IMG/VR virus record: IMGVR_UViG_3300036985_001252
Span: 1 to 26,626 of that record
Strand: one strand, 5' to 3'
DNA: 26,626 bases
Source of the DNA: a virus
A program made the position numbers and the translations under genes. A model generated the notes under the pieces. It was not told the DNA's origin. It saw only the letters and a program-made list of their open reading frames with translations, and ran no database searches. How positions within the stretch are numbered: the stretch's first letter is position 1; each line of letters opens with the position of its first letter. Positions 1 to 22,619 of this stretch are shown piece by piece.

Positions 1-693
1 AAGTTGCTCATATGCGTTTACATCTTCTGCTTGTTTAACATTGTGCTGACCAAAAGCATAGGCAACAATGCCTGAGAAGTTTTCGAATGTAGCTAAAAAC
101 TCTTGACTGAATGTTCTAGCATCTAGATCTTGTCTAGCTTGTTCAACTTCATCTTCTGGCACATTACCACCATCCAATGTAGTAAACTGAAAACTCATCC
201 AGTTCTTTCTAGTTGTATAGTAATCATAGATCTCTTTGAACCAGTTCATACCTTTGGGTGTGCCTAGGAAGAGAGCGTGTCCACCTGTGTCTGCCAATGT
301 AGGGCGTAATACTTCATACCATGCTTCACTGTCTATATCTGCGGCTTCATCTAAGACAATAAAGTTTAATCCCACACCACGCAGACTATCATAGTTATCA
401 GCACCGCGAAGAGATATCTCACTGCCATTGACCAACTCCAATGTAAGATCCTGTTCATTTACTTTTTTAACCCAGTTAATTCCTATTAACTTCTTCTTAA
501 GTTTCTTCCATACAATCTGTTTTGCCATTCTATATGTTGGAGCAATATACCAACACTTTTGATCTGGCTGACTGGCATACTTGGCAAGTTCTCTAATAGC
601 AAGGTGAGTTTTCCCGAATCTTCTTCCACATACTGCTACTCTAAATCTAAATGGCGCATCTGCTATCATGCGCTGTGCTTTACTTAACGCCAT
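1..693 (-). CDS. Terminase large subunit 1 (TerL1), N-terminal part, runs off the left edge
   Basis: This is the ATPase half of a phage DNA-packaging motor subunit; the C-terminal nuclease lies beyond position 1. The 231 visible residues show a Walker A loop CGRRFGKT (about residues 22-29), the P-T-Y segment near residue 52, a Walker B IVLDEAAD (D115-E116) and a coupling motif LGTPKG further on. Spacing and wording fit the Terminase_6/P22-T7-like TerL superfamily. The ATG at 693 overlaps the end of the TerS1 gene by 14 nt, the usual TerS-TerL coupling. It differs clearly in sequence from the second TerL at 21009-22619, for example in its Walker A context and shorter N-terminus. Family identity is sure; whether it is functional cannot be judged from half a gene. 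Confidence 0.9.
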   Translation of the reverse strand, partial: MALSKAQRMIADAPFRFRVAVCGRRFGKTHLAIRELAKYASQPDQKCWYIAPTYRMAKQIVWKKLKKKLIGINWVKKVNEQDLTLELVNGSEISLRGADNYDSLRGVGLNFIVLDEAADIDSEAWYEVLRPTLADTGGHALFLGTPKGMNWFKEIYDYYTTRKNWMSFQFTTLDGGNVPEDEVEQARQDLDARTFSQEFLATFENFSGIVAYAFGQHNVKQAEDVNAYEQL

Positions 694-1111
694 TTAACTC
701 CGCATATTCTTCACGCATATCTTCCAACTGTTCTTCTGAGGGTTTATCATCTTCATCATCACTAAATGGTAATACTTTACTTCCATCATTGACCATACCA
801 TTGTCGCTCATGCCCAACATGTTTTTCGCTAAGAATATCTGCACTGCGGCATTTAGATTTACACAGGCATTTTTAAGCATTGCTCTGCGTAATGATATCT
901 TCAGCGTTTCACGACCTTTTATTAGTTCATCGTTAAAGTTGTATCTAATTGCTTGTTCTGTGACACCAAACCAGTTTGCTATATCAACGTTGGTGCAGCC
1001 TAATGCGGCCAAGTCTTCGACTTCTTCGGGTGGCACTACAACATTGCGTCGGCCTATTAACTTGCCTTCAACAATCTTTTCACCCCAAGCATTGGCTTTA
1101 CCTTGACTCAT
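680..1111 (-). CDS. Terminase small subunit 1 (TerS1), helix-turn-helix type
   Basis: A 143-aa protein probably recognising viral DNA for packaging by TerL1, whose gene overlaps its 3' end. Residues about 30-58 read as a helix-turn-helix: a proline-rich lead-in, then LAALGCTNVDIANWFGVTEQ. After this comes the pattern 'EL..GR......LR.A......NAAVQIFLAKN.LGMSD', which matches HTH-type phage small terminases, where an 'A.IFWLK...GW'-like stretch follows. The acidic C-terminus (DDEDDKPSEEQLEDMREEY) is typical of the part that contacts TerL. The ATG at 1111 overlaps the stop of the upstream membrane-protein gene (TAATG). The alternative, a plain DNA-binding regulator, is less likely given the partner gene. 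Confidence 0.78.
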   Translation of the reverse strand: MSQGKANAWGEKIVEGKLIGRRNVVVPPEEVEDLAALGCTNVDIANWFGVTEQAIRYNFNDELIKGRETLKISLRRAMLKNACVNLNAAVQIFLAKNMLGMSDNGMVNDGSKVLPFSDDEDDKPSEEQLEDMREEYAELNGVK

Positions 1112-1257
1112 TAGAAAAACAATCCTACAACTTTGTATATTGCTATTGCTATACCTAGGAAAAACGCACCCGCAAGCAAGCCATTTACCATGCGATAAAA
1201 GCGTAGTTTTTCTTCTACTAAGTGTTCTTCTTTTTCAATCATACTTGTTAGTTTCAT
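1111..1257 (-). CDS. Small single-pass membrane protein, holin-like candidate
   Basis: A 48-aa ORF, ATG at 1257, stop TAA overlapping the TerS1 start. The N-terminal half is charged (MIEKEEHLVEEKLRFYR). The C-terminal half is one continuous hydrophobic helix (VNGLLAGAFFLGIAIAIYKV) ending in two Phe. The start overlaps the stop of the upstream gene as ATGA, so it sits in a tightly coupled chain. A small one-helix membrane protein directly before TerS and TerL is the order seen in T7 (class II holin 17.5, then 18, then 19). That makes a holin role plausible, but the fold alone does not prove it. It could also be a membrane-associated packaging or exclusion protein. Confidence 0.6.
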   Translation of the reverse strand: MKLTSMIEKEEHLVEEKLRFYRMVNGLLAGAFFLGIAIAIYKVVGLFF

Positions 1258-1469
1258 AGTGCGTCCTTTAATAGTTTAAGTTGTTCATGTGTGAGAAAAC
1301 ACTCAAACCTATTGTCAAATATACTTTGACTTTGTAGCTGTATGTGCCATACACTTGTGGCTTCTACCCAAGTCTTTTTTAATCTAAGATTATAATCATC
1401 TGTGCTGATTATATCAAATTCTTCTTTAGTCTTGCCTTGGCTGTAAACCATAAATTGTCCTTGTCTCAT
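1254..1469 (-). CDS. Terminase-adjacent small protein, paralogue A
   Basis: A 71-aa protein of unknown function. From residue 24 on, the pattern DDYNLRLKKTWVEATSVWHIQ...FECFLTHEQLKLLKDAL lines up with the 56-aa protein at 20830-21000 (EDYKLKVKKTWVKATEQWHIQ...FELFLTEDELEHLRRVL), and more weakly with the 68-aa protein at 22619-22825. A strand-rich core followed by an amphipathic C-terminal helix ('LT..EL..L...L') is the common plan. The ATG at 1469 has a good AGAGGT ribosome-binding site. The gene leads the chain membrane protein, TerS1, TerL1. No known domain recognised. Confidence 0.7.
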   Translation of the reverse strand: MRQGQFMVYSQGKTKEEFDIISTDDYNLRLKKTWVEATSVWHIQLQSQSIFDNRFECFLTHEQLKLLKDAL

Positions 1470-2614: not shown

Positions 2615-4183
2615 TCACAGATGTGAAACACTGTGCCTCATTGGATTGATCTCTGCCAATGCTTGTTCCAATAATCTTTGATCTCCTGTGGCCATGGCTA
2701 ATTTATAAAGTTCCACTGCTGTGTTAGTTTCCTTTTTTTCCTCTGTTTGGATAAAATGTCCATGCTGTTCTGTGATCTCTACGGAGAGATATGGATTAAA
2801 CTGCTGTAGTGCGCTGACAAGTTCTACTCTGCTGATGCTGTGTTTGATATAAACTGCGTCATGCACTAACAATAATATTTCCTCTGCTCCAAATCTTCTT
2901 TGAACATAGTCAACAATTTCTTCCAAATAACTTCGTTCTGCTTGCTGATATAAACAGGCCATGATTTTATTGCGGTGTATGCTGCCACTTTTAGTTTTGA
3001 CAAAATCTGGAATACTGTCTTTGGTATTGTGTAATAGAAAGTGTTCCAATATAAGTTTATTCATAGTTTTTTGTTCATCAATAAACTCCATGAACCAACG
3101 ACTGTTTGTTAAAAACTCAACTTCTTCTTTGTTAAGTATTTCTCGTATTGCTGGTAGTTTGTAATTGTCATTGCCAGTGGGCCATGGTGTAGCTTCAATG
3201 TCTGCTCCAAATCCAATTGCTGTAATAATCTGTTTGGCACGACCTGTGTGCTTGTCACCTAATAACTTGGCCACTCGCTGTCTAAATGCCAATTTGTCTT
3301 TAATCAAGTCTTTACTGTGGCGTGTCATTATATTGGGATTTATTAACTCTGCTTGATGCACTCTCCACGCTTGGCTACACACATCAATGTCAATGCTATA
3401 ACAATGTCCCATGGCAGCATGGCGTAGTTCTTTACTGCTGTTTTGTAAATTTAATCCTGTGAGATACAATCTACCAAAATCACTGTCCTTGGTTGCTTGT
3501 TTAAGAACACCATCTTCCTGTAGTTTCAATATACACACTGCCTGCTTTAAGTTTTCTCGGGCCTTGGCTTTGTATTCTTCACTGGCATATTTGTATGAAT
3601 TGGTTTTAGTATCCCAACGTCCCATGCTAGCCACATTCAAACTGCGTTGTATGAATATGTTTAAACTAGTCAAGTCTATTGGTGTGGGCAAATAACTTTC
3701 ACCTGGTTGAATAACACCAAAGTATTCTTGGATAGACTCTTTGCTCCAATGTGTTAGGTCTTCGGCATCTGCCATTTCATAATTAAGTTTTACCATTGTA
3801 TTCTCCTCTGTTAAATTGTTGCCTAATTGGACTATAGTATATAAACTATATTTGCTGTTCTCAAACCAATCCAGCCAATACATTCTCTTTCCATTTAGTG
3901 TATATTGACCTAATTTGGTGCTGATTCGTCTTCTTCTTATGTGATATAAGTTTAGTTTTTTTTGACTGGGATTACGCCAATTTAATTTTAGTTCTGTCAT
4001 GACCAAATCATAGTAGCGATTGACTAACTTTACATAGTCAATGCGTGGTCCTCGCTTTGGCTGAGGTATTTGATTTGAAACTGCTGTGGCTGTGACGACC
4101 AAGTCATAACGACCAGTTGGCAACACCTCCTCTCCCTCCTCTTCCGGGGGATATGTGGTATATGTATGTGATATGTAAGTCAT
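2615..4183 (-). CDS. Compact single-subunit nucleic-acid polymerase (Pol A / T7 RNA polymerase palm-fold candidate)
   Basis: A 522-aa protein whose C-terminal two thirds carry motifs in the order expected for the family A DNA polymerase / single-subunit RNA polymerase fold. Motif A-like: YSIDIDVCSQ (262-271, Asp265 and Asp267). Motif B-like: RAKQIITAIGFGA (315-327), where Lys317 is followed eight residues later by Phe325-Gly326, the spacing of K631...Y639-G640 in T7 RNA polymerase. Motif C-like: LLLVHDAVY (437-445) with the invariant-type His441-Asp442. A conserved-looking run GRLYLTGLNLQ-SKELRHA precedes motif A. I see no 3'-5' exonuclease motifs, and the protein is much shorter than T7 RNA polymerase (883 aa) or E. 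coli Pol I. Template and substrate (DNA, RNA, primer synthesis) are unknown. ATG at 4183 overlaps a short leader ORF and has no strong ribosome-binding site, suggesting coupling. Confidence 0.6.
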   Translation of the reverse strand: MTYISHTYTTYPPEEEGEEVLPTGRYDLVVTATAVSNQIPQPKRGPRIDYVKLVNRYYDLVMTELKLNWRNPSQKKLNLYHIRRRRISTKLGQYTLNGKRMYWLDWFENSKYSLYTIVQLGNNLTEENTMVKLNYEMADAEDLTHWSKESIQEYFGVIQPGESYLPTPIDLTSLNIFIQRSLNVASMGRWDTKTNSYKYASEEYKAKARENLKQAVCILKLQEDGVLKQATKDSDFGRLYLTGLNLQNSSKELRHAAMGHCYSIDIDVCSQAWRVHQAELINPNIMTRHSKDLIKDKLAFRQRVAKLLGDKHTGRAKQIITAIGFGADIEATPWPTGNDNYKLPAIREILNKEEVEFLTNSRWFMEFIDEQKTMNKLILEHFLLHNTKDSIPDFVKTKSGSIHRNKIMACLYQQAERSYLEEIVDYVQRRFGAEEILLLVHDAVYIKHSISRVELVSALQQFNPYLSVEITEQHGHFIQTEEKKETNTAVELYKLAMATGDQRLLEQALAEINPMRHSVSHL

Positions 4184-4254
4184 ATACTATTAGCGCCAGC
4201 AGTTTCGGGCCACACAGCGCCAGCAGTTTTTTGTAGTAAAAAAGCCATTTTCAT
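4180..4254 (-). CDS. 24-aa ORF translationally coupling two genes
   Basis: ATG at 4254 overlaps the stop of the 113-aa gene as ATGA, and its own stop overlaps the polymerase ATG in the same way. A GGAGA sequence stands directly upstream. The predicted peptide begins MKMAFLLQKTAG and contains the segment TAGA twice, encoded by a 14-nt direct repeat AAACTGCTGGCGCT. The peptide may matter only for passing ribosomes on to the polymerase start. No homology can be claimed. Confidence 0.4.
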   Translation of the reverse strand: MKMAFLLQKTAGAVWPETAGANSI

Positions 4255-4592
4255 TCTCCAAACAAACTTTTGTATTGTTTGTTTTGGCAATAGCGATTGT
4301 AGGTCATTGGACCCTGACTGGCCATTGGAGCCCAATCTAAAACATTTTGTCCTAGTTCTGTGGCAGCCACACTTGGACAATGCTGTATTTGATCTACCAA
4401 CCAAACGAATGTATTCTTCTTAACACTGTTTATTTCAAAATGGTTATCGTTGATTTGGTCCGCGGCTTTGTTTACCCAGTCCCACCATTCAGCATAACTT
4501 TTTTGGCTTAGGTGCTGTTTCTTATAAGCATCGCAGGCTAATACGATGTCACGCATTTCATCTAAATGCTCTGTTCTTAAATGTAGTTCCAT
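4251..4592 (-). CDS. Hypothetical protein, 113 aa, first gene of the polymerase operon
   Basis: An unknown protein. I choose ATG 4592 rather than an upstream in-frame ATG at 4649, because AAAGGAAAT stands just before 4592 and the promoter -10 box (4641-4646) would fall inside the longer version. The sequence looks helical with many Trp, His and Gln (LSQKSYAEWWDWVNKAADQ). It ends in a basic/aromatic tail (TYNRYCQNKQYKSLFGE). It lies directly after a sigma-70-like promoter and is coupled to the 24-aa ORF and the polymerase, so a replication-related role is possible but inferred only from position. Confidence 0.6.
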   Translation of the reverse strand: MELHLRTEHLDEMRDIVLACDAYKKQHLSQKSYAEWWDWVNKAADQINDNHFEINSVKKNTFVWLVDQIQHCPSVAATELGQNVLDWAPMASQGPMTYNRYCQNKQYKSLFGE

Positions 4593-4633
4593 TTTTATTT
4601 CCTTTATTAAATAGGGATTTGCCTCCCTCTGTG

Positions 4634-4669
4634 TATTTATATTATACACGCTTTTTATGCGTTTTACAA
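4634..4669 (-). promoter_or_regulatory. Promoter: sigma-70 -35/-10 followed directly by a TATAAATA late-type box
   Basis: On the minus strand TTGTAA (4664-4669) is followed after exactly 17 nt by TATAAT (4641-4646), and this runs into TATAAATA (4634-4641). The spacer contains ACGC and GCGT half-sites separated by seven bases, a possible operator. The start site would be near 4634, giving a leader of about 40 nt to the 113-aa gene. The overlap of the two box types could allow both early and late use. Confidence 0.65.
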
Positions 4670-4684
4670 CCTTATTTTTGCCAA

Positions 4685-4802
4685 AAGAAAAGCCCTTATA
4701 AGGGCTTTTCCGGTGTAGTCATTGCGACCTCACCTATATCGGAAGCGGGCTCTTTTAAGGAACTTTGGCAAATACATTATAAAGGATAAATTTGCTTCCG
4801 AC
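4685..4802 (-). ncRNA. Candidate structured small RNA with three hairpins
   Basis: The gap between the lipoprotein gene and the promoter at 4634-4669 holds ordered structure. Reading the minus strand: a closing stem CGGAAGC/GCTTCCG (4794-4800 with 4740-4746, 47-nt interior); then a hairpin GGTGAGGTC-GCAAT-GACTACACC (4712-4734, one A-A mismatch and one G-U); then a perfect palindromic terminator (4687-4710). An ACTAAATA box at 4808-4815 sits about where its promoter would be. Together these predict a free-standing RNA of about 115 nt. It does not fit a tRNA and I do not recognise a riboswitch class. A 5' leader with attenuator is the main alternative. Confidence 0.5.
4687..4710 (-). terminator. 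Rho-independent terminator, perfect 24-nt palindrome
   Basis: GAAAAGCCCTTA is followed immediately by its exact reverse complement. The stem has a GGGC/GCCC core, with A-rich and T-rich sides and TTTTCTTTT following on the minus strand. Its A/T flanks make it usable in both directions, but only minus-strand genes are present. It ends the candidate RNA just before the next promoter. Confidence 0.75.
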
Positions 4803-4807
4803 AATAC

Positions 4808-4815
4808 TATTTAGT
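4808..4815 (-). promoter_or_regulatory. T4-late-like box ACTAAATA before the candidate RNA
   Basis: The minus strand reads ACTAAATA, nested in an inverted repeat AATACT-AAAT-AGTATT (4803-4818). It lies immediately after the lipoprotein stop codon. A start site a few bases downstream would be near 4802, the 5' edge of the structured RNA. Confidence 0.4.
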
Positions 4816-4818
4816 ATT

Positions 4819-4998
4819 TTATTCTATTCTACATCTATGCTCAATGGGAAATCCTGGACATTGAAAGCTGGAACACACTACCCAATAATGACCTTCATCT
4901 GTAGTTATTTTGGTTCTAGTGATAGTGTCCGGACAGTCAGAGCCACCGCACCCTGAGATTAGGCTTGCCACGAGGATCGTTGTCAGTGGTGTTTTCAT
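4819..4998 (-). CDS. Small secreted lipoprotein
   Basis: A 59-aa protein from ATG 4998; the in-frame TTG at 5004 is a less likely start. The N-terminus is a classical lipoprotein signal: MKTPLTTILVASLISGCGG, with lipobox LISGC and the cysteine as residue 17. The mature part is about 43 aa and has further cysteines (DCPDTIT, VVCSSFQCPGF, HRCRIE), suggesting disulfides and a periplasmic location in a Gram-negative host. The 5' third overlaps the 56-aa gene in another frame. Short phage lipoproteins act as outer spanins (Rz1) or in superinfection exclusion. The mature part is not the proline-rich type typical of Rz1, so exclusion is equally possible. Confidence 0.65.
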   Translation of the reverse strand: MKTPLTTILVASLISGCGGSDCPDTITRTKITTDEGHYWVVCSSFQCPGFPIEHRCRIE

Positions 4999-5107
4999 TT
5001 TCAATCTTTTCTAGTATGTTGGCAAGTTCGGTGTAGAACTCATCACCGTGCTTGTCTATGTGTTCTCGGATTGTAAGTTCTAGTTTTAATCTTTCGGTGA
5101 TGTTCAC
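4937..5107 (-). CDS. Hypothetical 56-aa protein overlapping the lipoprotein gene
   Basis: GTG at 5107 overlaps the stop of the preceding gene (GCGTGA), and the frame stays open for 56 codons into the lipoprotein gene. The N-terminal half is a charged amphipathic helix (ERLKLELTIREHIDKHGDEF, then ELANILEKIENEN). It has no transmembrane helix, so it does not look like an inner spanin even though the overlap resembles the Rz/Rz1 arrangement. The last part is basic. The coupling and sensible composition support translation; function unknown. Confidence 0.5.
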   Translation of the reverse strand: MNITERLKLELTIREHIDKHGDEFYTELANILEKIENENTTDNDPRGKPNLRVRWL

Positions 5108-5316
5108 GCTTCTTCATCCTCTTTAGCCCATTGATCTTTGAAATACTTAAACTCTATATCACCAGCAACATCTAAAAGGTCTTCTAAAGGCTTAATAAAC
5201 TGTGCTAATTCTTTAGGGTAAGCGAATCCTTTAACTTCTTCTGCAAAGATAGCGGCTCGTCGTAAGGAGCACATAAACTCTTCAATCTGTTCTTTACGGC
5301 TGTATTGATTTTTCAT
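5104..5316 (-). CDS. Hypothetical protein, 70 aa
   Basis: An all-helical-looking charged protein (QIEEFMCSLRRAAIFAEEVKG, then FIKPLEDLLDVAGDIEFKYFKDQ) ending in an acidic tail. Start taken as ATG 5316, which overlaps the previous stop as TGATG and is preceded by GGAGG; a GTG one codon earlier is possible. No family recognised. It lies in a chain of coupled small genes of early-phage character. Confidence 0.6.
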   Translation of the reverse strand: MKNQYSRKEQIEEFMCSLRRAAIFAEEVKGFAYPKELAQFIKPLEDLLDVAGDIEFKYFKDQWAKEDEEA

Positions 5317-5594
5317 CACACTTCCTCCATATCAACGTCATTGCCTTCACACCATTCTTCAGTTTCATAGCACTCTTCGTCAGTTAGGTCTTCATCTTCT
5401 AGTTTGGACTCAAAGTATTCAACAACTTCTTGTTGTAGATGTTTAGGCAAATCATTCCAAGATGTATAGTTGTCAGGATCGCTGTCAAGTTCTTCCAATA
5501 ACTCGTAAATCTGTTCCCAGTTGTCAGTGTCCAGTTCAATTTCTTTACGATAATAAACAACTTTTTCTCTGGTAAGTGTATAAGAGCGTTTCAT
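5316..5594 (-). CDS. Acidic hypothetical protein, 92 aa
   Basis: After a basic first strand (MKRSYTLTREKVVYYRKEI) the protein becomes strongly acidic, ending in DEECYETEEWCEGNDVDMEEV. Such negative charge is common in phage early proteins that mimic DNA or bind host enzymes, but no specific family is recognised. The start is part of the repeated GGAGACAGCATAATGA junction, so ribosome-binding site, stop and start lie together. Confidence 0.6.
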   Translation of the reverse strand: MKRSYTLTREKVVYYRKEIELDTDNWEQIYELLEELDSDPDNYTSWNDLPKHLQQEVVEYFESKLEDEDLTDEECYETEEWCEGNDVDMEEV

Positions 5595-5815
5595 TATGCT
5601 GTCTCCTTAAACTCAAAAGTATATTTGTCTGTGCCCAAACTACCGGGCTTGCCTTTTGCACTCCAAGTATTATTTTTATTTTTAGTCCATTTAACATTTT
5701 CTACATAGCCATTTTCAAACTTGTATTCAATCCAAATGCTTTTTGGAGTAGTGCGAGTAATCTTGCCATAATACACCGGCGTGTCATCGCTGATGTCATA
5801 TACTAATGTAGTCAT
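5594..5815 (-). CDS. Hypothetical protein, 73 aa
   Basis: A beta-rich protein (VYYGKITRTTPKSIWIEYKFENGYVENVKWTK), probably a small barrel or SH3-like fold by its alternating pattern. It ends in FEFKETA, with the stop codon inside the coupling junction to the 92-aa gene. The start uses the same junction from the 154-aa gene. Function unknown. Confidence 0.6.
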   Translation of the reverse strand: MTTLVYDISDDTPVYYGKITRTTPKSIWIEYKFENGYVENVKWTKNKNNTWSAKGKPGSLGTDKYTFEFKETA

Positions 5816-6279
5816 TATGCTGTCTCCAAAACTATTTTATATGGACTTTGATCTAATCCACTATTATGAGTGTATTCATAGTTGCCCTTGAAGTCTTTGC
5901 TTAAAGGATCTGCTGGACCCACTGCCACGAACCAAAACTCATAGTCAGGAACTACATCTTCTCCGGGTGTAGCACAGATAAACTCACCTTGTTTAGTGCG
6001 AACTACGAAGTGTTCTTCAAAACAGATATGTCCCATTTTCTTTTGGACTGAGCGATAGGGATCAGTGCTGTCTCCGTTATTTGGATAAATGCGATAACCA
6101 AACCACACTTCACTGTCGGCTGTGATTAAATGTAATGCTCGGCTGTTGATCCTGCATTGTTTAGGCTGACCTTGTTTAGAATGGTTTTTTGTCTTTACAA
6201 GAGTGCCTGACATTTGTTTGGCACATCGTTGTAAGTTTTTTAATGACACGCCCGTTGCTTGTTCTAGATAATGTTTCAT
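5815..6279 (-). CDS. Hypothetical protein, 154 aa
   Basis: An unknown protein of mixed fold. The N-terminal 50 residues are basic and helical (LKNLQRCAKQMSGTLVKTKN). The middle has aromatic-rich strands (EVWFGYRIYPNNGDS and YEFWFVAVGPADPL). It starts at a TAATG overlap with the 73-aa gene before it and ends in VLETA at a second such junction. No known domain can be claimed. Confidence 0.6.
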   Translation of the reverse strand: MKHYLEQATGVSLKNLQRCAKQMSGTLVKTKNHSKQGQPKQCRINSRALHLITADSEVWFGYRIYPNNGDSTDPYRSVQKKMGHICFEEHFVVRTKQGEFICATPGEDVVPDYEFWFVAVGPADPLSKDFKGNYEYTHNSGLDQSPYKIVLETA

Positions 6280-6500
6280 TATACTGACTCCTCATCTGTA
6301 ATAGTCTGTTCTACTCTAACAATTTTGAATTTGTCGTTTTGCATCCAAGGCTTGAATTGGTTGCCTTTGTAAGTGCCACGACGATGTTCGCTGAGTAGCA
6401 CTTGTGCATCATCCACTGTAGCACAATCTGGAATGTGACTGTAACGGAACCAATCACCTTTAGTTGGGCTTAGACGCCACACTTGATAGAATGTATTCAT
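6279..6500 (-). CDS. Hypothetical protein, 73 aa
   Basis: I start it at ATG 6500, which overlaps the NUMOD3 gene's stop (ATGA) and has AAAAGGAAG just upstream; an in-frame ATG at 6524 would sit inside the NUMOD3 gene. The sequence MNTFYQVWRLSPTKGDWFR.. followed by TVDDAQVLLSEHRRG and DKFKIVRVEQTI suggests a small strand-helix-strand domain. The ending EESV lies in the coupling junction. Unknown role. Confidence 0.6.
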   Translation of the reverse strand: MNTFYQVWRLSPTKGDWFRYSHIPDCATVDDAQVLLSEHRRGTYKGNQFKPWMQNDKFKIVRVEQTITDEESV

Positions 6501-6772
6501 TTTGCTTCCTTTTGTTTTGCCCATCTTGCTTTTGCTCCGGCGGCAATCTTAGCACGAGTTTCTGCAGATTTATTAGTGCCAGTATGCGAAGCACTCATTT
6601 TAGCACGAGTTTCTAGACTAAGTTTTTTACCTGTATTATGGGCTTTAAGATTAGCACGAAACTTATCACTCATAATACCTTTTAAGCCTGAACTCCAAGA
6701 CAACTTTTTCTTTTCACAAGTAGTGACATTGTCGTCATCTACTGCTGTCATTGTAGTATTGAACAAGTTCAT
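6497..6772 (-). CDS. NUMOD3-type protein without nuclease domain (copy 2)
   Basis: A 91-aa protein with the repeated DNA-binding motif of NUMOD3 (found beside GIY-YIG and HNH homing nucleases): KKLSLETRAKMSASHTG, then KSAETRAKIAAGAKARW. The first 20 residues (MNLFNTTMTAVDD...VTT.E.K) match those of the 190-aa protein at 7663-8235, and the DNA under this part is about 83% identical over 52 nt (6721-6772 with 8184-8235). No nuclease domain is present. It follows the AAA+ ATPase gene by ten bases. Probably a sequence-specific DNA-binding remnant or regulator. Confidence 0.7.
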   Translation of the reverse strand: MNLFNTTMTAVDDDNVTTCEKKKLSWSSGLKGIMSDKFRANLKAHNTGKKLSLETRAKMSASHTGTNKSAETRAKIAAGAKARWAKQKEAK

Positions 6773-6782
6773 AGCAATCGCC

Positions 6783-7574
6783 TTACAGGCCTAACAGAAC
6801 AGCATCACGCCAGTTACCGCCAAGTGCCACACGCTTAATGGCTTTTTGGATAGTGCGGAATGTCCAACGGTCATCCGTCTTAGCATTAGCACATACGAAC
6901 TTAATCAGTTCATTTTGTTGCGTCTTTGTAAGACTACACTCATTCAATGACTGGATCAAGTTATGCTTATAGAACACTTTGATAGCAACAGCATTCCATT
7001 CAGTGCTCAAGCCAACACGCACGTATTCGCAACGGTCCTTGATAGGAGCCAGTGTAGCCGCATGCTTTTTGGTCATTGCCGCTGGAGCCATGTTCATGTT
7101 GCTGATGAACACTACACTACCCAAGCACTTGAATGAACTTGGAATGGCATTAATACGCAAGTGAGCACTACTGGCCTTGCCATAGTGAATTTCTTTGCCC
7201 TTACCGTCTAATGCTGCCTTAAGAATGTCACTCATCTCAACATCATTGAAGATAACATCAGTGTCGTCAATGACCAAGATTTGGTTCTTGTCTTTGGCAT
7301 GCTTGTATAGCATCTCGAACAGCACGGGTGCTGTAATAGTGCCATTGATAACATGGTAGTTGGCCTTAAGCGTCTTAAGTGTATGCGTTACAAGACTGGT
7401 CTTGCCGCCACCTTTAGGACCATTTATGATAAGTCCACGAGTGCCTAACTTACCGGACATGAAGTTAGTAAGTTCACTGGTAACATAGTTATAGTGACTT
7501 TTGATAACTTCTTCTTGTTGACCTGCTGTCAACTTTGCGGGACTCTCTGCGAGTTGTTTAACGAGATATGTCAT
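6783..7574 (-). CDS. AAA+ ATPase
   Basis: A 263-aa P-loop ATPase. Walker A is GPKGGGKT (52-59), Walker B VIDDTD (101-106), a sensor-1-like Asn159 sits in VVFISNMN, and a candidate arginine finger is in PIKDRCEYVRV (R181). The C-terminal part ends in a helical lid (DDRWTFRTIQKAIKRVALGG). I start at ATG 7574, because AAGGAG lies seven bases upstream and the promoter at 7638-7666 would be inside the longer ORF from 7700. Phage AAA+ proteins of this size act as helicase loaders, clamp-loader-like or DNA-remodelling motors; which applies here is not visible. Flanked on both sides by NUMOD3 genes. Confidence 0.8.
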   Translation of the reverse strand: MTYLVKQLAESPAKLTAGQQEEVIKSHYNYVTSELTNFMSGKLGTRGLIINGPKGGGKTSLVTHTLKTLKANYHVINGTITAPVLFEMLYKHAKDKNQILVIDDTDVIFNDVEMSDILKAALDGKGKEIHYGKASSAHLRINAIPSSFKCLGSVVFISNMNMAPAAMTKKHAATLAPIKDRCEYVRVGLSTEWNAVAIKVFYKHNLIQSLNECSLTKTQQNELIKFVCANAKTDDRWTFRTIQKAIKRVALGGNWRDAVLLGL

Positions 7575-7625
7575 AATAGACTCCTTAGTTCGTTGTTGAT
7601 AAAATATAGCGTCTTGTTTTTGTTC

Positions 7626-7654
7626 CGCTATGTATGTATTATAACACCATAGCG
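7626..7654 (-). promoter_or_regulatory. Operator-like inverted repeat around the ATPase -10 box
   Basis: CGCTATG (7626-7632) and CATAGCG (7648-7654) form a 7-bp inverted repeat with 15 nt between, framing the -10 box (7638-7643). The downstream half occurs in the same phase at the promoter of the 190-aa gene (8250-8256), and in shorter form (CTATG) at 8604-8608. This suggests a binding site for a regulator shared by these promoters. Confidence 0.5.
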
Positions 7655-7666
7655 AATTAGTGTCAA
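7638..7666 (-). promoter_or_regulatory. Consensus sigma-70 promoter of the AAA+ ATPase
   Basis: TTGACA (7661-7666), 17-nt spacer, TATAAT (7638-7643) on the minus strand: a perfect match to the sigma-70 consensus. The -35 box contains the TGA stop codon of the upstream NUMOD3 gene. The leader to ATG 7574 would be about 57 nt. Confidence 0.85.
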
Positions 7667-8235: not shown

Positions 8236-8261
8236 GTCTATTCCTGTTACGCTATGTAGTT

Positions 8262-8290
8262 ATTATACTGCCACAACCAATTTGTGTCAA
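8262..8290 (-). promoter_or_regulatory. Consensus sigma-70 promoter of the 190-aa NUMOD3 gene
   Basis: TTGACA (8285-8290), 17-nt spacer, TATAAT (8262-8267) on the minus strand. The -35 box follows the stop codon of the DUF4258-like gene by two bases. The leader is only about 20 nt. Confidence 0.85.
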
Positions 8291-8291
8291 T

Positions 8292-8582: not shown

Positions 8583-8613
8583 AAAAGGCCTCCTTTTGTT
8601 AAACTATGTGTAT

Positions 8614-8642
8614 ATTATAACACCAAAATCAATTAAAGTCAA
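8614..8642 (-). promoter_or_regulatory. Sigma-70 promoter of the DUF4258-like gene
   Basis: TTGACT (8637-8642), 17-nt spacer, TATAAT (8614-8619) on the minus strand. The stop codon TGA of the 42-aa gene lies inside the -35 box. GGTGT directly precedes the -10, as in the ATPase promoter. Confidence 0.82.
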
Positions 8643-8767: not shown

Positions 8768-8791
8768 ATAGCCCTTTGTGTGTAAAAACAT

Positions 8792-8820: not shown

Positions 8821-8832
8821 TAAACAAAAGTA

Positions 8833-8864: not shown

Positions 8865-8875
8865 GATTTAAGGTC

Positions 8876-8912: not shown

Positions 8913-8946
8913 GAAAGTTTGCAGTAATATTAACTAAAGGCAGTGA

Positions 8947-14788: not shown

Positions 14789-14810
14789 TATATGTTTCCT
14801 CTAAAATATT

Positions 14811-15371
14811 TTAACCTGTTCGTTGCGGATATGATACTGCAACTGGGATTGGTAATTTCCCACCTGGATAACAAATGTATTGAGGATATTCCGTTTCAAC
14901 TACACGATAAAACTGTGCTTTCATAGTTCTATCATTTTTAAGTGCTGTCCAAGGAATACCACCAAAGTATTGATCACTGATACGAATACTAATAACTGTG
15001 GGTAACTCCATCCATTTGTAAGTTAAGTTACCATCATCACCTATGGGTGCCATTGGATCCGGAATACCTAATTCTGCGGCGTGTCTATAGTTTTTTACAC
15101 GTTCTTTGACTTCTTCAATGTTTTGTTGTTCACGGGTAATAAAGAACTTACCATCCTGGCGTCCAGTAGTAACTTTAATGTTGTTACCTTTGTTCCATGA
15201 TGTTCTTGTCCAATCACCTTTCATTGACTTATATAAGTCGTCATTTTGTAATAACTTATCTGCTATGCCATTGTGATTAGTAACCATACCCCCATGATCT
15301 TGTCGGTAATAGTTATAGTTCTTTTCTGGATCTGTGTCATCCAAATATTCGGGTCTATTAATATCATTCAT
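14811..15371 (-). CDS. Putative virion adaptor protein, 186 aa
   Basis: A protein of unknown family between capsid and the gatekeeper-like gene, a position that usually codes for a head-completion or adaptor protein. I use ATG 15371 (MNDINRPEYLDD); an in-frame TTG at 15398 would place the late-type box inside the gene. Visible: a charged N-terminus with DDTDPEKNYNYYRQDHGG, a helix REQQNIEEVKERVKNYRHA, and a C-terminal strand-rich part ending GGKLPIPVAVSYPQRTG. No ribosome-binding site is visible before 15371, so the start is not firm. Confidence 0.6.
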   Translation of the reverse strand: MNDINRPEYLDDTDPEKNYNYYRQDHGGMVTNHNGIADKLLQNDDLYKSMKGDWTRTSWNKGNNIKVTTGRQDGKFFITREQQNIEEVKERVKNYRHAAELGIPDPMAPIGDDGNLTYKWMELPTVISIRISDQYFGGIPWTALKNDRTMKAQFYRVVETEYPQYICYPGGKLPIPVAVSYPQRTG

Positions 15372-15376
15372 AGTAT

Positions 15377-15384
15377 TATTTAGC
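15377..15384 (-). promoter_or_regulatory. T4-late-like box GCTAAATA between capsid and adaptor genes
   Basis: The minus strand reads ACGCTAAATAATAC, a 14-nt string found identically before the portal gene (20494-20501 core). The box lies only five bases before ATG 15371, so a start here would give an almost leaderless transcript. It comes directly after the capsid hairpin terminator. Confidence 0.5.
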
Positions 15385-15400
15385 GTTTTTATATTCAATG

Positions 15401-15424
15401 AGAAAGGGACCGAAGTCCCTTTCT
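15401..15424 (-). terminator. UUCG-capped terminator after the major capsid gene
   Basis: AGAAAGGGAC (15401-15410) and GTCCCTTTCT (15415-15424) form a perfect 10-bp stem. On the minus-strand RNA the loop is UUCG on a GGGAC stem, an extra-stable tetraloop. Only a weak T-tract follows (TTTCTC is part of the stem side), so it may pause, partly terminate or protect the capsid mRNA 3' end. Confidence 0.7.
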
Positions 15425-15448
15425 TTATTACTTTAATTCTGCAAAGAA

Positions 15449-16621
15449 TTAAGGAGTAACGTCGCCTGCACCTAAGTTTACACGGCTTACCAACGCGGCT
15501 GCACGAGCCGCAGGCAAACTTGCTTGAGCGGCTGTGCCTGCTGTGATGTTGTTTAGAACACCAACGCCTGCTGGGTTACGAACAATTAGCGTGCCTTCGA
15601 GTATGAACTGATCCAATGACGCATCAGCATTGCTGAATACTTCATTGTTAGGACCTAGGTCACGTAGTGAACCCCACTGAACAACATCTTCATTCAAGAA
15701 GAAGATACTGTTAGCATTTACGCTGTCCATGATCCAAGAATCAAAGATTTCGTAAGTGTAGTTGAAGTCACCTTCATAAGTCTGGATTGTATCACCACGT
15801 GCTGAATCAACACGGTTAATACCTCTGGACTGTGGCATGTTGTCACTTAGACTTGTGCGTAGGCTAGTAGGAGCAACTACTGTGCGGATCTTAGCGTTGT
15901 AGCGTTGTTCAGCAACTGTTACCAATTGCTTGTATAATGCTGGGCTGAAGAACTGGTTAGTAAATGTTCCAGAGTAGAACTGAGCACCATTAGCATAAAT
16001 CTGCAATGCGTTACTTGCTTGAACAGCAACGTCAGTGTCTTCATTGTTGTAGAAAGAATCTAAACCACTTAATGATCCACTTGTTGTGTTGAAACTTTGT
16101 GTGCCAGCGAATGAAGTCAATGAACCCATACGACGACCAGTTTGGCCTGCTGGCAAGCCAGAGGCTGTGCCTGTTTGACCAGCATACTTAGTGCCGATTT
16201 GGTCGTTACGAACTAATTGTAGTTCAACGTCAAACATCAATTCAATCAATTGCTTGACTTCTTGATATGCTTGTGGGTCGCCACCAGATTGCATAACAGC
16301 GCGAGCAGTGCCGGAAGCGGCAATAACTGTGCTGAAAATCTGTGTGTAGTTACCTAAGTTGTAACGTTGATTGCTCTGCGCTTGTGACGTAGAAACAGTA
16401 GCGCCTTCAACTTGTGCTTGAACACCAGGTGTGCGATAGATGTCATCTGTCCACAAAGGCAAAGTTGAATTAACTTTACGCTTTTTGCTCATACACATGT
16501 TTAGAACAGGTGTATCATCTTTTACTCTATTAGACACATCTAGGTCTAGATCTTTGACAACGATGTCGCTACCATATGCTGTAGTGCCGTTACCAATTTG
16601 ACTTGTTGTAATTTCTGCCAT
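15449..16621 (-). CDS. Major capsid protein (SU10-type, HK97 fold)
   Basis: A 390-aa protein. The N-terminus contains RVKDDTPVLNMCMSKKRKVN and SLPLWTDDIY-like spacing (TLPLWTDDIYRTPGVQAQVEG), characteristic of the SU10/DUF5309 family of capsid proteins. Later segments FDVELQLVRNDQIGTKY and QLVTVAEQRYNAKIRTVVAP fit the HK97-fold spine helix and A-domain. The C-terminal part after FILEGTLIVRNPAGVGVLNN is alanine-rich. Ribosome-binding site AAAGGAGCC before ATG 16621. It follows the scaffold gene by 17 nt. It is followed by a stable hairpin, which fits the high expression expected of a capsid gene. Confidence 0.85.
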   Translation of the reverse strand: MAEITTSQIGNGTTAYGSDIVVKDLDLDVSNRVKDDTPVLNMCMSKKRKVNSTLPLWTDDIYRTPGVQAQVEGATVSTSQAQSNQRYNLGNYTQIFSTVIAASGTARAVMQSGGDPQAYQEVKQLIELMFDVELQLVRNDQIGTKYAGQTGTASGLPAGQTGRRMGSLTSFAGTQSFNTTSGSLSGLDSFYNNEDTDVAVQASNALQIYANGAQFYSGTFTNQFFSPALYKQLVTVAEQRYNAKIRTVVAPTSLRTSLSDNMPQSRGINRVDSARGDTIQTYEGDFNYTYEIFDSWIMDSVNANSIFFLNEDVVQWGSLRDLGPNNEVFSNADASLDQFILEGTLIVRNPAGVGVLNNITAGTAAQASLPAARAAALVSRVNLGAGDVTP

Positions 16622-16638
16622 TTTAGGCTCCTTTAAAA

Positions 16639-17802
16639 TTATCTACCACCTCTGCCCGACTTCAATCTTTGAAGTTGAGCCATTAAGAGGTTGTCTCCGG
16701 CTTTTTTATCACCGGACTTGGCTTGTTCACGAAGTTTTTCAATGTTATCATTTGATCCTTTGCCTGTGCTACCACCTTTACGGTTAGTTAATGCAGCCAT
16801 ACTGCTGCCAGCACTCTTAGTAGAAGGTTTATCTCTATATCTTAGACCATCACGGACTAGGCTTAATAATGCTTCGTCACTGCTGATCAAATCTATATTT
16901 GGCACACCAGGTATAATTTCCTGTTTAGCGTGTGGCCACAACTTGCCTACCTTTTCACGAATCTCATTAAAGACATATTCATTTTTCAATTCCTTGTCTG
17001 TAAATGCTTTGCGTGAACTATCTAACCTTTGGCTGACCTGCTGAGCACGAACTTGTCTAAACTGTTCTACCGCTGGCTGGATTTGATTAATCATACCCTG
17101 CTGTTGGCGAATGTATTGTTCATTCTGTTTCATACTTGCTTGGATACGGGCACGTTGTCCTGGATCCTGTGTTCTAGCCAATTGTTGCTGGAATGTAGTT
17201 TGATAATTCTGTGTTTTCAAAATCTCATCATACGCACTTTGCAACTTTGGTTGGATGGTAAACTCCATTGCTAATGTTAGACCTTCTTGTCTAGCATAAG
17301 TTTCTTTTAGATACTCATCAAATTCAGCCTTTTGAACTTTAAGTTCTCGGGCTTCTTCATGTATTGCTGATCCTTGACCTAGAATACTTGCGGCTTTCTT
17401 AGCATCAATGACTACTTCTTTACCGTTTTTCATAAACTTGAACTTGGCGTTCGGGTTAGTTTCTGCGAACTCAATAAAATCAATTAGTTCATCAGTGTTA
17501 GAATCATTACTATCAGTGCTTACCTCTTCAGGGGCATCTGCTTCTTGACCGTCGCTGTTGTAATCTTCATCGTTGGTATCACCAACTTCGGCGTCAGCGT
17601 TTCCGCTGGGTGCCACAGGGTTAGATGTTTCTTCTGCCACATCATCTACTCCTGTTGCAGTTGTTTCGGTAGCACCAATTTGATTACGTAATGTCATTTC
17701 TTTCATTGCGGTCATTTTAGCGGCTATAGAATCCAAACTTGGGACTGCACTTTGACTTGCGGCCGCACCATTATCGGTGTTAGGACTTGTCGTTGTTTCC
17801 AT
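16639..17802 (-). CDS. Capsid scaffolding protein
   Basis: A 387-aa protein without globular enzyme motifs. An acidic disordered N-terminal third (TNDEDYNSDGQEADAPEEVS) is followed by a short folded part (KFKFMKNGKEVVIDAKKAAS). A long Gln-rich coiled coil comes next (LQSAYDEILKTQNYQTTFQQ ... MKQNEQYIRQQQGMINQI), then a basic helical C-terminus (NIEKLREQAKSGDKKAGDN ... LKSGRGGR), typical for the capsid-binding end of phage scaffolds. It lies directly before the capsid gene, the standard place. The MKNGKEV element is also frequent in such proteins. Confidence 0.8.
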   Translation of the reverse strand: METTTSPNTDNGAAASQSAVPSLDSIAAKMTAMKEMTLRNQIGATETTATGVDDVAEETSNPVAPSGNADAEVGDTNDEDYNSDGQEADAPEEVSTDSNDSNTDELIDFIEFAETNPNAKFKFMKNGKEVVIDAKKAASILGQGSAIHEEARELKVQKAEFDEYLKETYARQEGLTLAMEFTIQPKLQSAYDEILKTQNYQTTFQQQLARTQDPGQRARIQASMKQNEQYIRQQQGMINQIQPAVEQFRQVRAQQVSQRLDSSRKAFTDKELKNEYVFNEIREKVGKLWPHAKQEIIPGVPNIDLISSDEALLSLVRDGLRYRDKPSTKSAGSSMAALTNRKGGSTGKGSNDNIEKLREQAKSGDKKAGDNLLMAQLQRLKSGRGGR

Positions 17803-17811
17803 TTATTTTCC

Positions 17812-18156
17812 TTAATTAATATCGGGCACTTCGTTAGTGCTTACGATACGGTTTTTTAAATAAACAGCCCTCTTAAGGCTGCTTACAAAATTGTCAATGC
17901 CTGCAAGTTCATTGCTAACAGCAATTCTTCTAGCATTGTCGTCTGGTTGATGACTGCGAATGGACGCTAATTCATCAGCAAGACTGAATTTAAAATGATG
18001 CACAAACATTGCTAAATCTCTGTTCTTTAGTAATGCTTCTGCTAGACTACCATAATGTTTAACTTGGTCTTTTTGACTTGTTGTTAATTTACTGGGTTGA
18101 CTCATGTCAACTGTTAGTCTGTTGTTATAAAAATCTACTGCGTCTTCGTTGATCAT
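17812..18156 (-). CDS. Hypothetical virion-operon protein, 114 aa
   Basis: An unknown helical protein (SQKDQVKHYGSLAEALLKNR; FKFSLADELASIRSHQ; GIDNFVSSLKRAVYLKNRI) between portal and scaffold. The position suggests a minor head or ejection-associated protein, but no family is recognised. A box AATAAATA and an 18-nt palindrome stand between the portal stop and this start. It ends eight bases before the scaffold ATG. Confidence 0.6.
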   Translation of the reverse strand: MINEDAVDFYNNRLTVDMSQPSKLTTSQKDQVKHYGSLAEALLKNRDLAMFVHHFKFSLADELASIRSHQPDDNARRIAVSNELAGIDNFVSSLKRAVYLKNRIVSTNEVPDIN

Positions 18157-18176
18157 ATTCTATTCTATTATATGTT

Positions 18177-18196
18177 TATTTATTCTTAAGAATAAA
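18177..18196 (-). promoter_or_regulatory. AATAAATA late-type box merged with an 18-nt palindrome at the portal stop
   Basis: AATAAATA occupies 18177-18184 on the minus strand. It overlaps the perfect palindrome TTTATTCTTAAGAATAAA (18179-18196), which also contains the portal stop codon (18186-18188). The palindrome is AT-rich, so a weak hairpin or a dimeric binding site is more likely than a terminator. Confidence 0.35.
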
Positions 18197-20468
18197 CCTT
18201 TGGATCGCCAGCAGCCATACTCATAAAGTCTAACTGCGTTTCTGCATCTTCACCAGCAACTTCCATTTGTATCTGCTTGGCTTTGACATCATTTAAGTTA
18301 GCCATGGATAACTTCTGCTTGTCTTCTGGACTTGGTTCTTTATTGGCCTGTGCTTGTTTGCCTTGTTCAATAATGGCTGCTACTTCATCATCACTTGGCA
18401 AGTAAGTATTAGCATCTTTAACACCCAATACATATAGCGTATCTGCAAATGGCTTTTTAATCTTTTGATACATTTCAGGAGTCATTGTGCCTTGACCAAC
18501 TAAGTTAGTCAATGCTGAGTATAAATCATTTTGGCACTTCTGTATAATCTGTAAACGACCCAATGCGTTTTCTTCACTTTGCATGCCTAATGCTAGTTCT
18601 AAACGGATCTGCTTTCTATCACAGAAGTCCATGTCATCCCAACTTTGATAATCCATGAACAAGGGTTCTTTGTTTTCACCACATTGTTGTGCTAGTTTCT
18701 TAACACCATAATCATCACCATATTGAATCAATGTGCGCCATACCAAGTATAGTGCTTCTTTCAATCCTTCTGCGGCATTACGCACAGTATTGTCTTGAAT
18801 GATTTGATTTGGACTTAGTGCTAGTTGTAGTTTGATACCGCTGTTACCTGGTGCCATAACTTCTGGATTGAATACATCCTGTGGAGTAGTCATACCAACC
18901 ATGGCCATAGTGTCTTGTTGTATGCGGTTCATAGCAACTTCTAAGAACTGTAAGTTACCACTGGGAGGAGGCATTTGGTATATGTCTTTGCTAGGATCAA
19001 ACTTTGAATCTAAAATAAAGATAGCACTTTCGCCATCCTGCATCATTTCAAAGTCAACTCTGTCTGGCTTAACACCAATACGTGGAGTTGCTGTTAACAA
19101 ACCTAATTGAATTTCAGCACGAGCCGCAGAGGTATTATATTCCTGCATAGGAATAACCGATTCAGCGATACTCATACCATAGAAGTTTCCAGGTAGTGGT
19201 TTTGGACACATATTGGCAACTGGAATAAACTCTACTTCACGAGCAGAAATAATATAACTGCCAGAGTAAATCAATTCAATTAGTTCTAATTCGCCATCAC
19301 CATCAATGTCATACTTGTTCCATACTGTGACGATTGATACTTGACGACTGTCAGGATCTGCACTGGCAGCACTGCTTACAGGAATACCCATAACTGGCAC
19401 TGAATCACGTGCGTGAATTGCCAAGTTGTTTAATACACTACCTGCTTGATAAGCACCATTCATATTGTATTCTGCGTGAACACGAAAGTGCTCAATGTCA
19501 ATGCCAGGATATAATTCTACTGCTTCTTGAATTGTCATTGGATCATAATAACCACAGAATGGTTGATCCTTCATCTCTGGCACTGTAGGATCACAGATCC
19601 AGTAATGTTGTGCAATAGGATGAAACTTGATGTTGATTGAATAACCAGTTAGTTTATATTTGGCTGTGTAAATTGTATTGCGTTTAATAGCGTCTGCGAT
19701 AATCTGTTGTTGATTATCCATTTCATTTAACTTCATGTCAGTGACAGCAGTGGACATTGATTCTTGATCAAACTCTTCTGGTGCTTGACGCATTGCGTTG
19801 TCAGCCAAGTCTAACATTGATTCTGCACTTTGTGCTTCTTGTTCACCTAATAGTTGTTGAATCTCTGCCATGGCTTTTTCCATGTCCACAGAGATTTGTC
19901 GCTTGCTTTGTCTGCGAGCAGTTAATCCTGAATCTGCTGCCTGTTGTTCATAGGCACGTAGTTGATCCAATGTGCCTTCTGTTTCAATATAACGGTCAAT
20001 CTTTTCACGCACTGGTTTAATCATCATCATACCATTTTTGTGCATGTTAGCATCCATGATCCAACGCTCTAGGATAAAGTGCGGATCATTCATTTGATTA
20101 ACAACTTTGTTGACCATGTTTGTGGCTTGTCTTGCGGCTATTTCATCATCTTCTGTGTCTGCTACGAATTCAAAGTTAATCTCGCCATTGGGCATAAGTC
20201 CTTTGGCAATAACTGCTGTGGCATAATCTACAACAGGCTTTACGCTGGGGTGAATATAGTCAATGCCATTTACTGGAGCAGTTGAGTCTGTGACTGCTAA
20301 ACACAAATAGTGATAATCGCTGGCCCTGTTAACAGCGTTCTTAGTTCCTAGATAGCGCAGATAACTGGCCATCTTGACATCCATTTGATTCTTCATACGC
20401 ACAAAGTTGGCGAGTGTTTTTCTATTTTGATTGATGTCGCTGACAGGGGTATTCTTTATTTCCAACAT
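18186..20468 (-). CDS. Portal protein
   Basis: A 760-aa protein of the size of large podovirus portals (P22/SU10-like). The N-terminal quarter reads LRYLGTKNAVNRASDYHYLC then VTDSTAPVNGIDYIHPSVKPVVDYATAVIAKGL, typical portal wording around the wing. A central acidic coiled segment (MEKAMAEIQQLLGEQEAQSAE) follows, then the stem-like region SIAESVIPMQEYNTSAARAE. Near the end there is a helical, Gln/Lys-rich C-terminus (AIIEQGKQAQANKEPSPEDK), as in barrel-forming portals. It lies between TerL2 and scaffold, the canonical order. AAGGAAAA precedes ATG 20468 and a GCTAAATA box lies 26 nt upstream. Confidence 0.85.
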   Translation of the reverse strand: MLEIKNTPVSDINQNRKTLANFVRMKNQMDVKMASYLRYLGTKNAVNRASDYHYLCLAVTDSTAPVNGIDYIHPSVKPVVDYATAVIAKGLMPNGEINFEFVADTEDDEIAARQATNMVNKVVNQMNDPHFILERWIMDANMHKNGMMMIKPVREKIDRYIETEGTLDQLRAYEQQAADSGLTARRQSKRQISVDMEKAMAEIQQLLGEQEAQSAESMLDLADNAMRQAPEEFDQESMSTAVTDMKLNEMDNQQQIIADAIKRNTIYTAKYKLTGYSINIKFHPIAQHYWICDPTVPEMKDQPFCGYYDPMTIQEAVELYPGIDIEHFRVHAEYNMNGAYQAGSVLNNLAIHARDSVPVMGIPVSSAASADPDSRQVSIVTVWNKYDIDGDGELELIELIYSGSYIISAREVEFIPVANMCPKPLPGNFYGMSIAESVIPMQEYNTSAARAEIQLGLLTATPRIGVKPDRVDFEMMQDGESAIFILDSKFDPSKDIYQMPPPSGNLQFLEVAMNRIQQDTMAMVGMTTPQDVFNPEVMAPGNSGIKLQLALSPNQIIQDNTVRNAAEGLKEALYLVWRTLIQYGDDYGVKKLAQQCGENKEPLFMDYQSWDDMDFCDRKQIRLELALGMQSEENALGRLQIIQKCQNDLYSALTNLVGQGTMTPEMYQKIKKPFADTLYVLGVKDANTYLPSDDEVAAIIEQGKQAQANKEPSPEDKQKLSMANLNDVKAKQIQMEVAGEDAETQLDFMSMAAGDPKVYS

Positions 20469-20621: not shown

Positions 20622-20833
20622 TACATATCTCCTGGCATAATAATCTTTGGACGATTTAGTTCTGCTTGTAAATCACAGGCATGACAAATGTATGCTGTGT
20701 CGCTGTCATCTAATTCATATATAGTATGTGGTGTTTCTGCTATCATTGCTGCCTGTTCAAATGCTTGAGCATGTTTTTCACATAACACCATTGTGTTTTC
20801 TTCTATGGCACAAATGAATAAACTTGGTGTCAT
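20621..20833 (-). CDS. Zinc-ribbon-like small protein, 70 aa
   Basis: Contains VLCEKHAQAF and, about 30 residues later, YICHACDLQAE. The C-x2-H plus C-x-x-C arrangement could bind one zinc ion. ATG at 20833 has AAGGAG six bases upstream and overlaps the stop of the preceding gene. Located between TerL2 and the portal. No family assigned. Confidence 0.55.
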   Translation of the reverse strand: MTPSLFICAIEENTMVLCEKHAQAFEQAAMIAETPHTIYELDDSDTAYICHACDLQAELNRPKIIMPGDM

Positions 20834-21000
20834 AATACTCTCCTTAGATGTTCAAGTTCATCTTCTGTTAAGAATAATTCAAAAGTGTATTCATTTACAT
20901 TATCACTGACAAATTGTATGTGCCATTGCTCTGTGGCTTTAACCCAAGTCTTTTTAACTTTGAGTTTATAATCTTCGTTGTTAATTACTGTCTGTTCCAT
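20830..21000 (-). CDS. Terminase-adjacent small protein, paralogue B
   Basis: A 56-aa protein from ATG 21000, chosen because TAAGGA lies just upstream; an in-frame start at 21036 would run into the terminase gene. EDYKLKVKKTWVKATEQWHIQ...FELFLTEDELEHLRRVL aligns with paralogue A (1254-1469) almost residue by residue through its core. It stands right after TerL2. Possible roles include a packaging cofactor or a nucleic-acid-binding regulator, but only position and family relation are known. Confidence 0.65.
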   Translation of the reverse strand: MEQTVINNEDYKLKVKKTWVKATEQWHIQFVSDNVNEYTFELFLTEDELEHLRRVL

Positions 21001-21008
21001 GCTATTCC

Positions 21009-22619
21009 TTAGTTTGCTGAGAAAGTCTTCTTCCAAGCAGGTTTATTACTGTCATCTGGTTTGATGTATCTGTCTCTTTGTGCTGCCATACGCTGTTGTG
21101 GACTGCGTCCATCCCAGGGTTCTGCAATTCCTTGTAAACAAGCAAGGAGAGCATAACGGCAACTATCAATTGCATCATCTGGATCACTGAAGCGTCCTCG
21201 TTCGTCTACATAGTAGTTAGTTGCTTCACTCAAGAACTGTGTGCAGTTTTCGTTGACCATTAGACTACCTACCTCCAACATTTGTCGCATTTGATTTATG
21301 CCATAACTTTTGTGATTGGTTACACGCCCTTGTTGGTCAGGAGGATTCATAATTGCTCGTTCATAAACATTAAGTTGATATTGTTCAAATAGTTCACGAA
21401 TACTGCTACTGCTCATAGTGTATCTGCCACTAGTGTTTGCGTCAGCAGGAAGAACAATAGGAGTGCCAAACACTTCAGGACGAAGTAAATGATTGATATA
21501 TTGAGTGGGGACTGCTTCTTCAACGCCCTGCACAACAATCTGTCTATGTAAATAAGCAGTTTTTTCATATGGATCCCAATACATTAAACTAATAACTGTT
21601 TTGTCGTTGACCAAGCCCAAGTCTAATGCTATAACTCGCTGTATGTTTGACATACGCATAAAGTCAATGTCACCGGATTTGTATAGTGGCCAATTGCCCA
21701 ACTGAAACACAGCACCTTTACCCATAACAGGTTTACCAGCAATACGTGCTTCACGTTCATGTGGTAAGTAATCTCGTTCTAGTTGTCTACGTGTTTCTTT
21801 TAATAAGAATGGTTCACCCCATGGACTATATTCAGGAACATCATCCCATGACACACGGATAAACTCATAGCCTTCTTCGTTGTTCCAAAACTTGCTTACA
21901 AGTCCGTTGAGTCCTTTGAGCGGTGTAAATGAGCAGAGAACTTTTCCCTGCGTTGTTGCTGTTCTAGTAACAATTTCACTGAAGAAATCATCTGGTGGTT
22001 GCTCGTCAAATACTGCAAGATCCAAGCGGAATCCTTGCATTTGTCTAACTTCCTGCGTGTAGTTAGCAAATAACAAATAACTATTGCTTCCAGATACATG
22101 CTTAACTTCACAACCAATGTTGTTGGCTCCATCGTTTCGCATAGTATCAGCAACAATGCAGTCGCGAGGAATGGCACCAGTTCCCAGATTTTCTGTAATT
22201 TTGACATCCTGTGTTCCTAATAATTCATTTTGTAGCACCAATGCTACCTGACTCCAGCCCTCACCTGCAACCATACAAGTTATTGGTTTATTAAATCTAT
22301 ATCCCTGCCACCAATCTGGATATAAACCAGTTAGGTGCATGGCAGTTTCATAACAAGTGCTTACTGTTTTACCAACACGATTGGCTGCAAGTATTCCTCT
22401 ACGATCCGCTGATCCAGTTAGAAAGAATTTCTTTTGGTGTTCAAATGGTCTAAAGTATTTGAGTTGATTCCACTTCATGTCTTCAGCAACTTCAATACTG
22501 AGACTCATTAACTTTGTTTTTAATGGTCCTGGTATTGTTTTAAGTGCATCAACAGTTAGGTCGTGTTCATCCACTGCCCAACGCAATGCTCTAGCCATTA
22601 ATACATCATTGCCCAGCAT
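21009..22619 (-). CDS. Terminase large subunit 2 (TerL2), complete
   Basis: A 536-aa packaging motor with both domains. ATPase: Walker A AANRVGKT (78-85), Walker B LAVFDEQPPDD (D205-E206), and coupling motif CSFTPLKG (229-236). Nuclease: first acidic strand VIALDLGL (D333), an Asp in LPADAN (around 392), and the last motif SDPDDAIDSCRYALL (around 479-493). Length and motif order are those of a full TerL. It lies directly before the portal block, coupled at its start to paralogue C (TAATG). It is distinct from TerL1 at the left edge. Ends in a basic, probably disordered tail. Confidence 0.92.
   Translation of the reverse strand: MLGNDVLMARALRWAVDEHDLTVDALKTIPGPLKTKLMSLSIEVAEDMKWNQLKYFRPFEHQKKFFLTGSADRRGILAANRVGKTVSTCYETAMHLTGLYPDWWQGYRFNKPITCMVAGEGWSQVALVLQNELLGTQDVKITENLGTGAIPRDCIVADTMRNDGANNIGCEVKHVSGSNSYLLFANYTQEVRQMQGFRLDLAVFDEQPPDDFFSEIVTRTATTQGKVLCSFTPLKGLNGLVSKFWNNEEGYEFIRVSWDDVPEYSPWGEPFLLKETRRQLERDYLPHEREARIAGKPVMGKGAVFQLGNWPLYKSGDIDFMRMSNIQRVIALDLGLVNDKTVISLMYWDPYEKTAYLHRQIVVQGVEEAVPTQYINHLLRPEVFGTPIVLPADANTSGRYTMSSSSIRELFEQYQLNVYERAIMNPPDQQGRVTNHKSYGINQMRQMLEVGSLMVNENCTQFLSEATNYYVDERGRFSDPDDAIDSCRYALLACLQGIAEPWDGRSPQQRMAAQRDRYIKPDDSNKPAWKKTFSAN

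Follow-up and report, generated by a model that had tools for sequence, protein, structure and literature searches.

A virus contig with two large terminases probably joins pieces of two co-occurring phages

The two large terminases found in a single virus contig most probably reflect two co-occurring phages that were joined during assembly, not a single phage with two packaging motors, a reading to which we give, from sequence comparisons, about three chances in four. The contig, referred to here as the window, is an IMG/VR virus record; it is linear, measures 26,626 bp and lacks end repeats, and its large conserved genes lie on the minus strand (Table 1).

Judged from their motifs and domain matches, both terminases are genuine, as a preliminary description of the window had held. 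Both match the Pfam family PF03237, TerL1 with E = 3.9e-11 (43.5 bits, cut-off 22) and TerL2 with E = 9.7e-17, and in each we recognised by eye a Walker A motif (GRRFGKTH in TerL1, AANRVGKT in TerL2), a Walker B motif (IVLDEAAD and AVFDEQPP) and a coupling-type motif (LGTPKG and SFTPLKG). TerL1 further matches PHROG phrog_2 (terminase large subunit) at 7e-37. Its frame is undamaged over the visible part, the N-terminal ATPase half with its Walker motifs, and then runs off the left end of the contig after 231 of about 410 aa (407–420 aa in relatives). TerL2 is complete and holds both the ATPase and the RNase H-like nuclease domain, the latter matching PF17289 above cut-off (1.9e-6). The two proteins do differ in sequence, as had been noted: BLASTP found no significant similarity between them (best E 0.29). 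The gene beside TerL1 had rightly been called a small terminase; this protein, TerS1, is up to 88% identical to the gene found directly before TerL1 in relatives. TerS2, which lies upstream of TerL2 in type A phages (defined below) and had no Pfam or PHROG family match, is a putative small terminase. A search found no relatives of TerL1 in bacterial genomes.

Table 1 Features of the window
Feature	Position	Strand	Description
TerL1	1–693	−	Large terminase of type B (siphovirus-type), 5′ 231 codons only; truncated by the end of the contig
TerS1	680–1111	−	Type B small terminase; PHROG phrog_309 (terminase small subunit), 5e-6
Small genes before TerS1	1254–2582	−	c2, c6, c15, HNH endonuclease c1, c16 (metallopeptidase-like)
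Type B early genes	2615–4649	−	522-aa divergent family A polymerase-like protein and 132-aa g4251
A/B switch zone	5115–8876		Variable early genes: NUMOD3 proteins, AAA ATPase, small ORFs
Type A-like p188, spanin-like g9538, tail fibre genes	8876–13567	−
Type A head genes	13577–20468	−	Adaptor-like p403, p195, SU10-type capsid, scaffold-like protein, SU10-type portal
TerL2	21009–22619	−	Complete type A large terminase, 536 aa
Type A genes before TerL2	23111–26414	−	p263, others, putative TerS2
TerS2	25998–26414	−	Putative small terminase; type A family upstream of TerL2

Searches of IMG/VR with each terminase, from which 80 loci were kept for each, revealed two separate lineages, here called types A and B. 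Among 50 long relatives, 28 carry TerL2 only (type A), 22 carry TerL1 only (type B) and none carries both, which speaks against the earlier suggestion of one phage keeping two packaging systems. Neither a closed genome nor an independent relative with two terminases was found (0 of the 50 long relatives, and no other record examined), and the window alone among the records examined has strong markers of both types. In the large-terminase tree, a check that had been proposed along with the profile searches, A and B form separate clades, both with support of 100/100, with TerL1 placed in B and TerL2 in A. In type A phages, TerL2 goes together with a portal and a capsid like those of podovirus SU10 and has a putative small terminase upstream. 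Their closed genomes measure 33.9–36.7 kb (34–37 kb) and have a single TerL each; three of these have direct end repeats of 123–127 bp (G023, G033 and G041), and in a fourth, G049, TerL2 is split over the genome ends. Type B phages have the order TerS1-TerL1-portal-scaffold-capsid-tape measure in closed genomes of 30–32 kb with one TerL each, including G012 (31.8 kb, with an 87-bp end repeat) and G013, whose ends overlap over 2,353 bp at 98.6%. As far as contig names tell, at least eight metagenomes contain both types.

Among named phages, the nearest type A record is MW202484 (Podoviridae sp. ctfne034), with the order TerL-portal and with 53% identity in TerL2 and 48% in the portal. TerL1 is 52–53% identical to the terminases of Pelagibacter phage HTVC111P and phage DSL-LC06, which are typed as siphovirus-like from annotated tape measure and tail genes, not from images. 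Their order, TerL-portal-scaffold-capsid-tape measure, is that of the type B relatives, tape measure gene included. The window, in contrast, has only TerS1 and the partial TerL1 of this arrangement, and the head genes seen in it are those of another phage. The preliminary description had likened TerL1, preceded by TerS and a small membrane protein, to the end of a T7 genome. We rejected this comparison because every TerL1 locus long enough to show it (67 of 67 with more than 1.5 kb downstream) has the type B portal behind TerL1, and in relatives the genes directly after TerL1 are those for a portal, scaffold, capsid and tape measure of its own; by homology, TerL1 is the first gene of a siphovirus-type head operon of type B. 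The supposed membrane protein (1254–1469, 71 aa) had no obvious hydrophobic stretch when judged by eye.

Each part of the window follows a lineage that exists without the other, as expected of a contig joined from two phages. On the right, TerL2 is 93% identical to type A genomes and the head genes reach 97% protein identity to type A. The portal and capsid match PF23899 (2e-46) and PF17236 (9e-35), bearing out the order of TerL2 before portal, scaffold and capsid that had been described. The head gene families are found in type A only, as are nearly all families from 13.6 to 26.4 kb; those of p263 and TerS2 were present in all 10 type A genomes compared and in none of the 10 of type B. Further left, p188 and g9538 are 96% and 93% identical to their counterparts in the type A contig L218, and at the right end of the window, read in gene orientation, the type A gene c18 is matched at 94% over the first 99 bases. 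On the left, TerL1 is 92% identical to type B contigs. Unlike the SU10-like podovirus module (PF23899 portal, PF17236 capsid), the left 5 kb of the window contains type B-only families that are absent from type A genomes, namely those of TerL1, the polymerase-like protein, g4251 and c16; families c1, c15, c6 and c2 are common to both types. Beyond the left end of the window, then, homology predicts a type B head operon, and beyond the right end genes of type A.

Family c2 has two members in the window, one beside TerS1 (1254–1469) and one after TerL2 (20830–21036), and such pairs of related small genes, here one beside each terminase, would fit two parents. The short type A contig L086 has exact 21-mers in common with the c2 copy beside TerS1. 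The 522-aa protein (2615–4183) matched no Pfam or PHROG family at cut-off; it contains the motifs YSIDIDVCSQ, RAKQIITAIGFG and LLVHDAVYI, and its model (pLDDT 52) weakly resembled family A DNA polymerases in fold (best E 0.07), which together suggest a divergent, short polymerase.

The window changes from type B to type A between about 5.1 and 8.9 kb, probably near 6.5–7.6 kb, as far as sequence similarity can place it. Nucleotide similarity to type B ends at 5115: the type B contig L210 matches positions 2–2614 at 78% and 2685–5088 at 85% identity, and the type B genome G001 matches 2685–5115 at 72%. Similarity to type A ends, from the other side, at about 8.8–8.9 kb, with continuous similarity to L218 ending at 8876. 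Shared 21-mers agree with this picture, those of type B numbering 54–376 per kb over the first 5 kb with almost none beyond, and those of type A rising from 7.6 kb (the reversed window, used as a control, had one shared 21-mer in all). The last type B-like short matches lie at 6.35–6.49 kb and the first type A-like one at 7.62 kb. Several genes between 5.1 and 8.9 kb have relatives in both the type A genome G049 and the type B genome G012. Searches with the junction-zone genes returned only distant or single relatives and placed the breakpoint no more closely. The 21-mer comparisons found no identical repeat at the junction zone, although elsewhere the fibre genes of the two types share up to 133 bp exactly, and a run of genes on one strand crosses the zone without an obvious broken gene. 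Both observations count against a misjoin. A tetranucleotide classifier trained on A versus B indicated a change near 6.6 kb; it was set aside, as held-out early regions of type A also scored as B. The zone also contains two NUMOD3 proteins (6497–6772 and 7663–8235) that resemble each other at their 5′ ends (83% over 53 nt), flank the AAA gene and are possible remnants of homing endonucleases. Ahead of the early genes, a sequence of about 53 nt occurs three times as a direct repeat (7618–8646), each copy with a TTGACA/TTGACT-17-TATAAT-like promoter on the minus strand.

The tail fibre genes (9725–13567) belong to families common to podovirus type A and siphovirus type B; family c0, for example, was present in 7 genomes of type A and 10 of type B. 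In other samples, fibre DNA of the two types is up to 94% identical, including the exact 133-bp match, which suggests that host-recognition genes have been exchanged across phage types. An assembly misjoin is mechanically possible because types A and B co-occur and share such near-identical DNA. The contig would unite DNA of two separate phages, both from one kind of aquatic sample. Its right two thirds would come from an SU10-like podovirus of type A, with TerL2 as its own motor, and represent the late operon of that phage. Its left 5 kb would come from a siphovirus of type B, with TerL1 as its own motor, and run from the last early genes into the beginning of the head operon. We infer that the assembler, not a phage, made the join, at sequence common to two phages in the sample, and that each motor would package its own genome in the real viruses. 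Chimeric contigs have been described in virome assembly (PMC3901335); in the present case the parents would be only distantly related phages, with shared fibre and early genes.

The same sharing of genes makes real recombination in the early region plausible, since early genes are exchanged between types: G012 and G049 have related early genes in similar order, the two types have fibre DNA and the c1, c15, c6 and c2 genes in common, and the junction falls in exactly this shared region, with both terminase frames undamaged as far as seen. Types A and B could accordingly have recombined during co-infection into a hybrid or cointegrate with both terminases, a molecule that may have been a passing intermediate and not a stable phage. 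We nevertheless regard such a recombinant as unlikely, given that both terminases co-occur in none of the long relatives and that the portal following TerL1 opens a full siphovirus head module, which together with a type A head would exceed the 30–37 kb genomes of either type. To hold both, a real genome would have to contain two head modules or be interrupted directly behind TerL1. Rather doubtful, too, is a hybrid phage, part SU10-like podovirus and part siphovirus, that replicates with two complete pairs of small and large terminases from the two lineages. A stable type A podovirus that acquired only TerS1-TerL1, whether for a second way of packaging or for interference with type B phages, is very improbable: TerL1 is undamaged in its visible part and the left edge hides what follows, but the acquisition is seen in no relative and the type B stretch spans about 5 kb with early genes, not just a terminase. 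Two published reports of two large terminases are not precedents either, as one concerns a single gene split in two frames (PMC10773633) and the other two adjacent annotated frames (PMC11512304), and neither resembles the case of the window. An assembly join is the simpler reading because it needs only two co-occurring phages with shared sequence. Of the further options named in the preliminary description, which were fusion with a second phage and an assembly join, we retain what they have in common, two phages in one contig, and a join by the assembler is more likely than a biological fusion.

Were a fusion true, two head-packaging systems from different lineages would reside in one genome, an arrangement seen in none of the relatives examined. 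Public virus contigs serve to define new phage groups, and a contig that mixes the genes of two phages can point to a biology with no counterpart in nature and mislead terminase-based phylogenies.
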